DNA of 64,000 nucleotides from positions 372,001 to 436,000 of the forward strand of contig NZ_SDQC01000004.1 of the NCBI RefSeq assembly GCF_004153445.1. Direction: 5' to 3'. Below the pieces are notes generated by a model. The model did no database searches. It was not told the DNA's origin and saw only the letters and a program-made list of their open reading frames with translations. Below, piece by piece: positions 25,093 through 31,815 of this stretch. A program made the position numbers and the translations under genes. Source of the DNA: Allopusillimonas soli (GTDB lineage: Bacteria > Pseudomonadota > Gammaproteobacteria > Burkholderiales > Burkholderiaceae_B). Each line of letters starts with the position of its first letter. The first letter of the stretch is position 1.

Positions 25093-25842
25093 TCACTCGT
25101 CAAAAGGGTGGAAGTGTGTCTCGATATACAGATACTTGGCCGGATAGAGCACTCTGGCCGCATAGACGGTTTCTCCGCGTGCGTTCTTGGCAACCCGCAG
25201 CGCCTGGGCGACCGGAACACCGATCTCGACATCCAGGTGGCGAGCTGCCGTGGCGTCCGCGCCGCGTATGGTCAGCACTTGCGTGGCAGTGCGCAGTTCG
25301 CTGCGGAAATGGCGGGCCAGAACAGGCAGCACGGGCTCTGTTTCAAAGCGTTCCAGCTGGCGTTCGGCCAGTCGGCTGGCCACATACACGGTGTTCAAGC
25401 TGTACGGCAGTGAGTCTGTCCAATTCACGCGCATGGACCACCAGTAGCTGGACGCCACGTGCGCGTCTGCCAGCTCCGGCGGCAAGGAGCCGAGACCGGT
25501 TTCCAGCACATCGAAGCGCACCCGTAAGTGCTCGATATGCTTGACCAAACTCTTCCAGTCTGTCGGCAGCATAAGCCAGTGCTCCTTGGCCGCATCGCCT
25601 ATGACGTAAGTGCCTTTGCCGCGTGTGCGCTCTATAAGGCCTTCGGCTTCGAGCTCATCCAGCGCCGCGCGCAAAGTGGCGCGCGAAACACCGTACTCCC
25701 GCATCAACTCGGGCAGCGTGGGAATACGCGCACCCACGGGCCATTCGCCGCGTTCCAGGCGCGAACGCAGTACGTACTTGATCTTGAGCGACAGCGGCAG
25801 GCGCGATTGCCTGCGCAGCGCGGCGTTCAGGTTTTGGGTCAT
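25093..25842 (-). CDS. GntR family regulator (HutC-type, UTRA domain)
   Basis: A 249-residue regulator with an N-terminal GntR winged helix (LSLKIKYVLRSRLERGEWPVG, then YGVSRATLRAALDELEAEGLIERTRGKGTYV) and a C-terminal UTRA ligand domain. UTRA features include the late LRVAKNARGETVYAARVLYPAKYLYIE. It lies 172 bp upstream of the MBL-fold hydrolase gene on the same strand and probably represses that operon in response to its substrate. Confidence 0.9.
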   Translation of the reverse strand: MTQNLNAALRRQSRLPLSLKIKYVLRSRLERGEWPVGARIPTLPELMREYGVSRATLRAALDELEAEGLIERTRGKGTYVIGDAAKEHWLMLPTDWKSLVKHIEHLRVRFDVLETGLGSLPPELADAHVASSYWWSMRVNWTDSLPYSLNTVYVASRLAERQLERFETEPVLPVLARHFRSELRTATQVLTIRGADATAARHLDVEIGVPVAQALRVAKNARGETVYAARVLYPAKYLYIETHFHPFDE

Positions 25843-26038
25843 GCTTGTATGCTTTTGCTCGGACTGATCATCTTACCCCGACATCCGCCGGTGCATTAAA
25901 CGGCAGCGAACCGCGCGCGGTTCGCTAACGGACGGCAGCCAATACTAGAATATCGTCAGGCCATGGCGGCAAACAGCGGCGCGAGCCGGAAGAACGGGTG
26001 CCGGGTCTTTCCTTCAAGAATACAAACAAGGACGTATC

Positions 26039-29491: not shown

Positions 29492-29513
29492 ATGTTATGT
29501 TATAACATAACAT
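29492..29513. promoter_or_regulatory. Zur-box-like palindrome upstream of the L36 paralogue operon
   Basis: A perfect palindrome whose core TGTTATGTTATAACATAACA spans 29493-29512 and extends by one base pair on each side. It contains two overlapping matches, one per strand, to the Zur-type core TGTTATAnTATAACA with a single mismatch. It lies about 70 bp upstream of the C- type L36 gene, a family known to be Zur-repressed in E. coli and other bacteria. Binding by Zur is inferred. Confidence 0.75.
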
Positions 29514-29582
29514 TTATTTCATACCCCACGTTCCTTCGCCGCTATGCGCGGTGTTCCCGCCAGTTTCCCAGGAAGCGCCATC

Positions 29583-29729
29583 ATGCAAGTTCTGTCCTCC
29601 CTCAAAGACGCCAAGAAACGCCATCGCGACTGCCAGATTGTGCGCCGGCGCGGCCGTCTTTATGTCATTTGTAAAAGCAATCCGCGCTTCAAGGCGCGCC
29701 AGGGCGGTGCCCGCAACAGGCGCGCGTGA
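29583..29729 (+). CDS. rpmJ2: Zinc-independent ribosomal protein L36 paralogue (C- type, YkgO-like)
   Basis: A 48-residue protein of the 50S subunit that can replace zinc-containing L36 when zinc is scarce. It matches YkgO over its length ([31 protein letters not shown], then RFKARQG). The CxxC zinc pair of the standard L36 is not complete: the first Cys position is replaced, as expected for a C- paralogue. ATG 29583 has AGGAAG upstream. Its stop overlaps the next gene's start (TGATG), so the three genes following the Zur-like box are probably one transcript. Confidence 0.93.
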
Positions 29730-30853
29730 TGCGGGCGCTGGATGTCGTTGTGGTCGGTGCCGGCGCCGCCGGAATCGGCATGGCGCTGGCGCTTCAGAAA
29801 ATCCCTCGGCTCCGGTTTGGCGTTCTGGAAGCCGGACGTATCGGAGAGTCTTTTCACCGATGGCCCGCTGAAACACGTTTCATCACGCCTTCGTTTTACA
29901 GCAACCCCTTCGGGATGGCCGACCTGAATGCCGTCAACGAGCTGTCCTCGCCCGCAATTTTCTCCGGATCCGAGCACCCCAGCGGCGAACAATTCGCCGC
30001 TTATCTCGCATTCCTCGCCAAAGGGCATGAGCTGCCGGTCGTCGAGAATTGCCCAGTGCAACACGTTGCGGCCCTTGAACGCAGCCAAGGCTTCAGGCTT
30101 TCAACGCCCCAGGGCCAACTGCGTGCGCGATTCCTCATTTGGGCCACTGGCGAGTACCAATATCCTGATCTCGATCCCTTTCCTGGCGCGCAATGGTGCC
30201 TCCACTATGCGCAGGTAAACAGCTGGAAAGCCGTCGCGGGCACGCATCATACGGTCATAGGCGGCTACGAAAGCGGCGTGGATGCCGCCGTCAATCTTGC
30301 CGCGCAAGGATGCGCCGTACGGCTGCTGGTCCGCAAGTCTTCCTGGGACCCACAGAGCACTTACGATCCAAGCCTGTCCTTGTCTCCATACAGCCGCGAA
30401 CGGCTTCACCGGCAGGTCGACAGCGACAGGCTGGAAATTCTCTTTGGCGTGGATGTGATCCGGGTTACGCAGGGCCAGGGTATCGGGTTTCGTGTCCATG
30501 CCTCCGATGGTCGTTACTGGGATGTCCCACAGCCACCCATCCTTGGCACGGGCTTCGTCAAAGGCGGCGGCGCCCGCCAGATTGCCGGGCTCTGGCAATG
30601 GGATGGGGATAACCGCATTGTGCTTAGCGAAGCCGATGAATCCACACGCACGCCGGGGCTGTTCCTAATCGGGCCCCAGGTCAGGCACGACACGCGCATC
30701 TACTGCTTCATATACAAGTTCCGCCAGCGCTTTGGCCTTATCGCGCACAGCATCGCCCAGTGCCTTGGCCTCGATTCACAGGCGTTGCAGGTTGGCGTGG
30801 GCGCATGGGGTCCCTTCGGCAATAGCGAGTGCTGCGAAGGCTGCGAATGCTGA
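29729..30853 (+). CDS. CzcO/ArsO-like FAD-NAD(P) oxidoreductase with Cys-rich C terminus
   Basis: A 374-residue flavoprotein of the monooxygenase/thioredoxin-reductase-like group. An FAD-binding motif VVVVGAGAAGIGMALAL opens the protein, IWATGEYQYP marks the flavin-domain junction and VIGGYESGVDAAVNLA is the NADPH-binding motif. The final residues NSECCEGCEC hold four cysteines and suggest metal binding. The start overlaps the L36 stop; GTG 29726 is an alternative. Relatives occur beside czc and ars genes with unproven functions. Placement behind a Zur-like box suggests a zinc-limitation role; an arsenic-linked role is the rival reading. Confidence 0.82.
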   Translation: MRALDVVVVGAGAAGIGMALALQKIPRLRFGVLEAGRIGESFHRWPAETRFITPSFYSNPFGMADLNAVNELSSPAIFSGSEHPSGEQFAAYLAFLAKGHELPVVENCPVQHVAALERSQGFRLSTPQGQLRARFLIWATGEYQYPDLDPFPGAQWCLHYAQVNSWKAVAGTHHTVIGGYESGVDAAVNLAAQGCAVRLLVRKSSWDPQSTYDPSLSLSPYSRERLHRQVDSDRLEILFGVDVIRVTQGQGIGFRVHASDGRYWDVPQPPILGTGFVKGGGARQIAGLWQWDGDNRIVLSEADESTRTPGLFLIGPQVRHDTRIYCFIYKFRQRFGLIAHSIAQCLGLDSQALQVGVGAWGPFGNSECCEGCEC

Positions 30854-31815
30854 TGCGCCCGGCGCATCTTGCCCAAACCGGCGTTTCCTTTTTGCTGTTG
30901 GCTGCGGTGTTTATCGGGGCTGCGGTTGGACAGGTGCTGCCTGAAGCTGGACGCTGGCTGGGCGGGCACATCGATGCCACCTTGCTGGCACTCATTTTTC
31001 TATTGTTCTTTGGCGTACGTGCCGACGCTGTCGTGACTGCATTCAGAAACCTTCGCTTTATCGGCGTGGCGCTGTTGGTCAACTTCCTGCTCGTGCCGCC
31101 AATAGGCTACGGCATTTCCCGCCTTTTTCTGGACATGCATCCATGGATGCAGATAGGGCTGGCCATCTACTTTATGTCGCCGTGCACAGACTGGTTCCTG
31201 GGATTCACGCGGCTGGCCGGTGGCAACGTGGCCTTGGGTGCGGCGCTGATACCGTTGAACATGGCCGCGCAATTGCTGCTGTACCCCTTTTATCTCCAGT
31301 TGGTTTCCCACAATGTAGTGCATGTAGACGCGGCAGTCATCAGCGATACGATGCTGCGGTGGTTTATGCTGCCGTTACTGCTGGCTGTGGTGCTGAGCGG
31401 CTTGCTGTCTACCTTGCTTGGTCTCGATACCTTGCGCCGCTTGCAGCGGTATGCGGACAAGGCCGTACCCCTATGCCTGGCCCTACTGGTGCTGGAAATA
31501 TTTGGCGCCAATGTGGCTGTCATTCAGACACATGCGATGGTTTTCACCCGATTGCTGGCCGCCGTTTTTGTGTTCTTTGCAGCAACTTACCTACTAAGCG
31601 AAGCCGTAGGCCGCATTTGCCGCTACTCCTACCCCGAACACGCCCTGCTTACAATGACGGTCGCCGCCCGCAACGCGCCACTTATGCTTACCGTAACCAT
31701 GGCGGCGCTGCCTGGTCAGCCATTGATCTACGCGGCACTGGTCATGGGGATGTTGCTCGAGTTTCCTCATCTTACCGTCCTCACACGCCTGCTGCTGCGC
31801 GCTCGGCCGCGCTGA
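30847..31815 (+). CDS. BASS/ACR3-like membrane transporter
   Basis: A 322-residue inner-membrane protein with about ten hydrophobic segments, of the bile acid:sodium symporter superfamily that includes ACR3 arsenite carriers. The segment YFMSPCTDWFLGFTRLAGGN resembles the ACR3 region with its essential Pro-Cys-Thr, while the C-terminal VAARNAPLMLTVTMAAL matches the superfamily crossover motif. ATG 30847 overlaps the flavoprotein stop and has GAAGG 6 nt upstream; ATG 30853 is an alternative. It completes the rpmJ2-flavoprotein-carrier cassette. Zinc or metallophore movement is inferred from context only. Confidence 0.82.
   Translation: MLMRPAHLAQTGVSFLLLAAVFIGAAVGQVLPEAGRWLGGHIDATLLALIFLLFFGVRADAVVTAFRNLRFIGVALLVNFLLVPPIGYGISRLFLDMHPWMQIGLAIYFMSPCTDWFLGFTRLAGGNVALGAALIPLNMAAQLLLYPFYLQLVSHNVVHVDAAVISDTMLRWFMLPLLLAVVLSGLLSTLLGLDTLRRLQRYADKAVPLCLALLVLEIFGANVAVIQTHAMVFTRLLAAVFVFFAATYLLSEAVGRICRYSYPEHALLTMTVAARNAPLMLTVTMAALPGQPLIYAALVMGMLLEFPHLTVLTRLLLRARPR

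Follow-up and report, generated by a model that had tools for sequence, protein, structure and literature searches.

A 64-kb window of the Allopusillimonas soli genome (the whole stretch analysed here: 64,000 nucleotides, contig NZ_SDQC01000004.1, positions 372,001 to 436,000 of the forward strand, renumbered from 1) contains, between positions 29492 and 31815, a short operon whose reading as a zinc-starvation operon is well supported. It begins with a perfect 22-bp palindrome, ATGTTATGTTATAACATAACAT (29492-29513, no strand assigned), which is a predicted Zur operator composed of two overlapping Zur-type sites. On the 3' side of the palindrome lie three plus-strand genes, each joined to the next by a 1-base overlap, with both junctions reading TGATG. 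The first of these, rpmJ2 (29583-29729), encodes a type B (zinc-free, or 'C-') form of the ribosomal protein L36. The second (29729-30853) encodes a 374-residue flavoprotein of the flavin adenine dinucleotide (FAD) and nicotinamide adenine dinucleotide (phosphate) (NAD(P)) type (PF13738, E 2e-86), a relative of PDB entry 3d1c, and the third (30853-31815) a 320-residue inner-membrane carrier of the ACR3/BASS superfamily (PF01758, E 3e-13). This is the order that a first-pass annotation, made from the letters of the sequence, had described, with a Zur-like palindrome followed by L36, a flavoprotein ending in CCEGCEC and a carrier, and it is confirmed at these positions. The assignment of the L36 to the C- type also stands, as the protein scores 90.7 bits against the PRK00831 profile (cut-off 70) and keeps only two of the four zinc ligands, with H-C-C-F in place of the C-C-C-H found in the zinc-type L36 encoded elsewhere in the genome. 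It is established for this family that the type B protein takes the place of the zinc-binding L36 and thereby spares zinc.

From its operator and the other sites in the genome we strongly infer that the cassette is regulated by Zur. The pattern ATGTTATANTATAACAT is matched twice within the palindrome, in overlapping positions that start at 29492 and 29497 and with one mismatch each, and the palindrome itself matches Zur boxes given in the available part of PMC2706843. A perfect palindrome of 22 bp is not unique in the window, where there are two, and the unusual part is therefore the match to the Zur motif, for which a search of the 64 kb with the 18-mer core returned no second match below 5 mismatches. 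Across the 4.15-Mb genome the exact core is found at two places, with a third place within 2 mismatches, and a genome-wide search for TGTTATRTTATAACA that allowed 2 mismatches gave 8 matches, distributed over three places. One of the exact places is the rpmJ2-flavoprotein-carrier cassette and the other is a divergent promoter, which has a Fur-family gene followed by a COG0523 gene on one side and a gene for a znuC-like ATP-binding cassette (ABC) ATPase on the other. Since the reversed pattern, used as a control, also produced 6 matches under the same 2-mismatch limit, it is the two exact places that carry weight. The Zur-type regulator of the genome, which is assigned to the Fur family from its profile and to Zur from its gene neighbours, has the same operator in its own promoter. 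A scan for sigma-70-type promoters between 29380 and 31950 found none, against 1.0 expected from shuffling. The third and weaker place (L085:3096, G000:C11:636094-636113, outside the window) lies in the gap between the genes for a TonB receptor with a His-rich loop, which we take to be ZnuD-like, and a BenE-family transporter, and BenE is a possible additional target of Zur.

What, then, is the flavoprotein? Its C-terminal end reads SECCEGCEC and forms a thiol tail, CCEGCEC, composed of Cys368, 369, 372 and 374 (30830-30850, plus strand). An alignment was made of 50 flavoproteins, taken from the proteobacterial loci described below and from groups in Staphylococcus, Paenibacillus, Acaryochloris, Paracoccus and Halocatena. 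Within it Cys326 (codon 30704-30706, plus strand, in the motif YCFIYKFRQRF), Cys372 and Cys374 are invariant (50/50), Cys368 and Cys369 are each present in 48, the last CxC is kept throughout and no protein extends beyond the last Cys. Cys157, kept in all of the first 40 rows, is present in 45 of the 50 overall. The conservation of these thiols across such groups makes the tail a signature of the family and not an accident of one strain. The closest solved relative is 3d1c (E 2e-61; Foldseek TM-score about 0.8), a 'flavin-containing putative monooxygenase' from Staphylococcus aureus whose entry title names no function beyond 'putative monooxygenase'; it shares Cys326 and has Gly at the position of Cys157. 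After 3d1c the Foldseek ranking places the YpdA/Bdr disulfide reductases nearest, with N-hydroxylases also near, the fold being that of a flavin-containing monooxygenase (FMO). A putative assignment to the CzcO/FMO type comes from the PF13738 fold. The scores against the more specific profiles lie well under their cut-offs, at 63.8 bits for YpdA/Bdr (TIGR04018, cut-off 339.9) and 43.7 bits for the ArsO equivalog (NF040505, cut-off 425). A likeness can also be drawn to MerA, a flavoenzyme with a mobile C-terminal cysteine shuttle, from which the flavoprotein differs in having no recognised N-terminal redox CxxxxC and no sign of metal reduction. An unusual member of the family, of 494 residues, is encoded in genome G068 (L086:169-1653); it contains a large internal insertion in an open frame, adjoins a carrier and is preceded by a Zur-like site with 3 mismatches, which starts 33 bp upstream.

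The carrier has in common with the ACR3 arsenite carriers the fold superfamily, the PCT motif of transmembrane segment 4 (TM4) and the E-x-P motif. The TM4 Cys shared with ACR3 (C112, within PCTDWFLGFTR, codons 31180-31212, plus strand) is found in 28 of 28 carriers aligned, alignment A2 taking in 20 of the 28, and the PCTDWFL motif is invariant among aligned carriers. In ACR3 this Cys is essential for As(III) efflux, according to the available part of PMC3317726. The Glu of the LIEVP/LLEFP (E-x-P) motif of the ACR3 encoded in the same genome is also kept, and each of the 20 carriers put through a profile scan has an ACR3 match at E <= 1e-5, with 16 matching the BASS profile as well. The differences from ACR3 are the low score of the carrier against the equivalog TIGR00832 (47.3 bits, cut-off 282.8), the loss of the TM9 FFEL Glu and a neighbourhood in which no ars context was found; a separate true ACR3, by its score of 386.7 bits, lies elsewhere in the genome. 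For Glu305, which is essential in CgAcr3, there is more than one possible counterpart, the lost TM9 Glu and a later Glu that the carrier has preserved. With the BASS symporters the likeness lies in the predicted fold (TM-score 0.8 to ASBT, 3zux), and the score against the BASS profile TIGR00841 is 20 bits (cut-off 326.3). In an alignment with ASBT the residues S114, N115, E260 and Q264, presumably those of the sodium site, are replaced in the carrier by F, L, T and R.

The flavoprotein occurs in 8 of 101 near relatives, the genome of the window included, and in 5 of these 8 the carrier lies beside it, the genomes without a carrier being G001, G002 and G004. A further 8 near-relative genomes have only distant members of the carrier family, at 25-30% identity. 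Among 369 genomes sampled across the class the flavoprotein was found in 3, again with the source genome included, and the carrier profile matches exactly the same 3; in G219 and G395 the two genes stand side by side as they do in the window. A GTDB scan extended the collection to 38 named loci with the flavoprotein, of which L016 and L017 belong to the same genomes as G004 and G001, respectively. L003, L005, L006, L007 and L008, which are on the same contigs as L022, L014, L015, L016 and L017, were left out of the alignments, as were L009-L011, which are pieces of one gene in G068. On the flavoprotein tree the closest relatives are from Pollutimonas, Verticiella and Achromobacter, within the Alcaligenaceae.

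The first-pass annotation had proposed looking in other genomes for rpmJ2 followed by the flavoprotein and carrier under Zur motifs, and these elements do recur. Type B L36 is encoded just upstream of the flavoprotein in 10 of the 38 loci, an ACR3/BASS-like carrier is the partner in 27, a FeoB-like protein is the partner in 7 and neither is present in 4. A Zur-like box, defined by up to 4 mismatches to the 18-mer core, occurs somewhere in 31 loci, and in 21 of the 38 it precedes the flavoprotein by no more than 1 kb. In the distant genome G395 a Zur-like box lies 36 bp upstream. First-order Markov shuffles give an expectation of 0.012 sites per locus, a value that the true expectation would somewhat exceed as the shuffles do not model AT-rich promoters. 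The proposal of a Zur box and a role in zinc starvation is thus upheld, both by these 31 loci and by the occurrence of the core at the zur/znuC promoter. Zinc-starvation neighbours are found in 31 of the 38 loci, and either a box or such a neighbour in 37. The neighbours comprise COG0523, CysRS, ThrRS, FolE2, DksA, PyrC, HisI, gamma carbonic anhydrase, Zur, zinc ABC components and type B L36, names that were assigned by eye from cluster representatives, ten of which were then profiled. FolE2, CysRS, ThrRS, dihydroorotase and phosphoribosyl-AMP cyclohydrolase score above their cut-offs. Profile matches were also obtained for COG0523, Zur, DksA, carbonic anhydrase and the zinc ABC ATPase, under the equivalog cut-offs, as would be expected of divergent paralogues. 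Profiles were also run on 96 of the 132 unlabelled neighbours, the results being the 25 commonest families of each scan. DUF1826, which is named in a figure legend on Zur clusters within the available part of PMC2770081, adjoins in L024 and L028.

The membrane partner is therefore the variable part of the system and the flavoprotein the constant one. The carrier can be missing or have a FeoB-like protein in its place, which could not be seen from the window in the first-pass annotation, and a fixed, obligatory pairing of flavoprotein and carrier is ruled out by the genomes that have the flavoprotein only. The alternative partner contains the FeoB_N and Gate domains of FeoB (two such proteins were profiled) and differs from FeoB in having five invariant Cys, including a CxxC (13/13); for two Staphylococcus forms no G domain was seen in the alignment. 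The BASS/FeoB label changes at least two times over the flavoprotein tree, one of the changes depending on G395, which is on a long branch. The best clue to what the partner handles is that a FeoB-like protein can stand in for the ACR3-like carrier, which hints at a metal and not at an organic molecule.

The association with zinc genes extends to plasmids and to distant lineages, which were searched with the 3d1c sequence as bait and with neighbours taken from the record annotations. On two Staphylococcus plasmids the flavoprotein adjoins a zinc ABC binding protein and a nucleoside-recognition (Gate) protein, and in Paenibacillus it lies between S14 and a FeoB-type protein, together with a GTP-binding protein and L33. 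In Acaryochloris it is accompanied by ZigA and Fur-type regulators, with a Gate protein beside one of the two copies, and in the alphaproteobacterium Paracoccus it is located between a GTP-binding protein and CysRS, near aztABC. Even in the haloarchaeon Halocatena the flavoprotein is found with a GTP-binding protein, S14 and a Gate protein. The GTP-binding proteins in these distant neighbourhoods we infer to be members of COG0523. Bacillus-type Zur boxes, with 1 or 2 mismatches at best, are present in 3 of 4 Bacilli loci. The Enterococcus locus has only a 4-mismatch Zur site about 2.5 kb away, and no zinc gene was recognised by eye near the flavoprotein in this unannotated record. Of the 540 PLSDB plasmid records with a flavoprotein match 499 are from Klebsiella, and in the one examined, pKCTC2242 (L050), the flavoprotein gene and a nucleoside-recognition (FeoB-like) gene are situated inside a cluster of zinc-starvation genes. 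Plasmid matches also occur in Haloferax, Haloarcula, Halorubrum, Pantoea and Enterobacter, and in further Klebsiella and Escherichia records.

At the level of sequence, these comparisons establish the operon structure, the operator with its regulon context, the conserved thiols and the exchangeable partners. What would such an enzyme do for a cell that is short of zinc? Our best guess, held tentatively and at a little under even confidence, is that the flavoprotein is a redox-assisted enzyme of zinc capture and hand-off with an exchangeable membrane partner. Zinc-loaded Zur would occupy the palindrome and a drop in zinc would open the operon, upon which type B L36 would replace its zinc-binding counterpart. 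The carrier, like its FeoB-like stand-in, would transport zinc, alone or in a small complex, over the inner membrane, the TM4 Cys and conserved Glu being candidate metal ligands, and the mobile CCxxCxC tail at the C-terminus of the flavoprotein would receive the metal. Reducing power from NAD(P)H, passing by way of FAD and the invariant Cys326, would keep the thiols reduced or switch them, such that zinc is first retained and later released to recipients, probably COG0523 chaperones or apo-proteins. A more general proposal, which we regard as doubtful, is that the flavoproteins, spread over several bacterial phyla and a haloarchaeon, represent an unnamed and widespread class of flavoenzyme acting as a redox-controlled zinc chaperone, whose tail would be loaded from interchangeable FeoB-like or ACR3-like importers and would be made to release zinc by flavin-driven oxidation of its thiols. 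If true, the delivery of zinc would be tied to NAD(P)H and a protein of the ACR3/BASS fold would be a zinc carrier. The new zinc acquisition step suggested in the first-pass annotation is plausible, although unproven, and its metallophore component finds little support, consisting of one isochorismate synthase gene at two sister loci.

A number of points weigh against zinc capture and hand-off. Zinc itself is not redox-active and the ACR3 relatives of the carrier are exporters. In the AlphaFold2 model the predicted local distance difference test (pLDDT) is below 50 for both the tail (356-374) and the segment around Cys326 (318-330). Of the 31 boxed loci, 10 have the box at a distance of over 1 kb from the flavoprotein. 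Two of these (L024 and L048) have it immediately before an upstream CysRS gene, and in the remaining 8 it goes with a different gene of the locus, often one related to zinc. L012 has no Zur-like box and no zinc neighbours. Neither partner accompanies the flavoprotein in 4 of the 38 loci (L012, L016, L017 and L039), and a FeoB-like protein was not found in the genomes of these four, with the genomes of L047 and L040 positive as controls, nor in the flavoprotein-only G001, G002 and G004. The existence of such partner-less genomes means that a fixed complex of importer and enzyme is not required, and the retention of the tail in them implies that the enzyme would act by itself too.

The main rival to zinc capture and hand-off is thiol repair, whereby an NAD(P)H-dependent reductase would re-reduce, through its tail, cysteine sites that become oxidised when zinc is lost, with the carrier moving a thiol or a counter-ion. 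It is favoured by the position of the YpdA/Bdr disulfide reductases as the nearest folds after 3d1c, by the combination of an invariant Cys326 with a thiol tail, by the occurrence of the flavoprotein without a carrier in some genomes and by its linkage to paralogues of zinc proteins such as CysRS, S14 and L33. We nonetheless consider it unlikely, as a FeoB-like partner is hard to explain and Ala14 is invariant in a 40-row alignment of the flavoproteins at the position in GxGxxG that we take to be that of the YpdA active-site Cys. An improbable alternative is metallophore chemistry, in which a small zinc ligand would undergo oxidation or hydroxylation by the enzyme and export or reimport by the carrier. 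The FMO-type fold with its nearby N-hydroxylases, and the capacity of BASS carriers to move organic anions (for instance the pantoate complex 8oyg), would suit a metallophore of this kind, as would, weakly, an isochorismate-synthase-type gene located 2.4-2.5 kb upstream and on the opposite strand to the carrier-less flavoprotein in the sister loci L016 (2359-3597) and L017 (2320-3540). In both loci the profiled neighbours of this gene are a nitronate-monooxygenase-type gene and a PadR regulator, to which L017 adds a two-component system and L016 a TctC receptor with a partial TonB receptor; no further ligand-synthesis gene was seen around it. The isochorismate synthase family appears, among the families listed, in 2 of the 96 neighbours scanned (of 132). 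Moreover, the carrier can be replaced by a FeoB-like protein and the ASBT sodium-site residues are replaced within it.

Could the cassette deal with arsenic or another soft metal instead? The rival put forward in the first-pass annotation, an ars-like pair captured by a Zur promoter, draws on weak profile matches to ArsO and ACR3, at the 43.7 and 47.3 bits given above. Both scores are far under the cut-offs, the true ACR3 by score is elsewhere in the genome, Zur boxes recur across the loci, and co-occurrence with arsR/arsC, which was named at the outset as the sign of such a pair, was not found in the 38 loci. Queries for arsR, arsC and arsD gave no match there, although the positive controls matched; being from Firmicutes, these queries could miss a divergent ArsR. 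Nor are there ars genes among the commonest families listed for the 96 profiled neighbours. Beside the separate ACR3, however, none was recognised by eye either. The pair reading is accordingly dropped, on the basis of that separate ACR3 and of the lack of ars genes in the stretches tested, and arsenic resistance captured by Zur is very improbable. A broader form, in which derepressed zinc importers admit Cd, As, Cu or similar metals that the tail would bind and the ACR3-like carrier would expel, is rather improbable. It gains from the TM4 Cys and LIEVP/LLEFP Glu that the carrier retains from ACR3 and from the match of all 20 carriers to the ACR3 profile (16 also to BASS). Distant carrier relatives are present in 23 plasmid records, and both of the two that were examined have soft-metal neighbours: these relatives (L075 and L076, 'arsenic resistance protein', about 31% identity) are found with ArsR and a cation transporter in Staphylococcus and with mer and ars genes in Planococcus, which makes a soft-metal ancestry of the carrier possible. 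Set against detoxification are the FeoB-like partners, which would import rather than export, the absence of ars genes near the cassette in the stretches tested and the loss of the TM9 FFEL Glu.

The operon belongs to the known Zur zinc-starvation operons, and for its core parts no description was found in the literature searched. The claim of the first-pass annotation that enzyme and carrier have no recognised place in zinc biology is partly wrong where the enzyme is concerned. In Corynebacterium glutamicum the Zur-repressed oxidoreductase gene cg0795 adjoins a COG0523 gene (Cg0794/Cg0795), its product has been suggested to act with the metallochaperone, and the available part of the paper mentions no carrier or L36 (PMC2823685). 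The likeness, a Zur-controlled oxidoreductase beside COG0523, is one of description alone, and no Corynebacterium was among the flavoprotein matches obtained. Zur-regulated clusters of paralogues, including the pLVPK cluster, were described by Haas et al. 2009 (PMC2770081), and these have in common with the present loci the COG0523, CysRS, ThrRS, PyrC, HisI, DksA, gamma carbonic anhydrase and FolE2 neighbours and the Zur boxes. A Klebsiella plasmid cluster that resembles pLVPK in make-up carries the flavoprotein, to which, as to the carrier, no pointer was found in the available text of that paper, as distinct from its figures. A flavin-containing monooxygenase, MSMEG_5022, is listed in an expression table of the SmtB/Zur section in the accessible part of PMC7174638. 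Oxidoreductase, flavin, FeoB and nucleoside recognition are not mentioned in PMC5387054, PMC6336718, PMC8000910, PMC10957091, PMC10563805 or PMC6711530. No description of the flavoprotein-carrier pair, the thiol tail or the FeoB-like partner was found in the literature searched, which lay largely outside subscription papers. The family of the 3d1c 'putative monooxygenase' structure gains a physiological context in zinc starvation, and the ACR3/BASS-fold carrier and the cysteine-rich FeoB-like protein become two unexpected candidate zinc transporters. Both aspects bear on how bacteria allocate scarce zinc and on the partners of the COG0523 chaperones.

Some smaller observations concern the neighbourhoods. 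A GntR/UTRA regulator gene (25093-25842, minus strand) has the other perfect 22-bp palindrome of the window, AGCGAACCGCGCGCGGTTCGCT (25905-25926), at 63 bp on its upstream side, probably as its operator. A YidD-type gene is found between CysRS and the flavoprotein in the zinc-starvation operons of L030, L031, L044 and L046 (profile-checked in L030). Finally, a nitroreductase-family gene lies downstream of the carrier in L034 (8208-9854), with a fragment resembling its C-terminus, and giving no Pfam match, after the gamma carbonic anhydrase in L013 (8741-9115); this gene may be another starvation gene.

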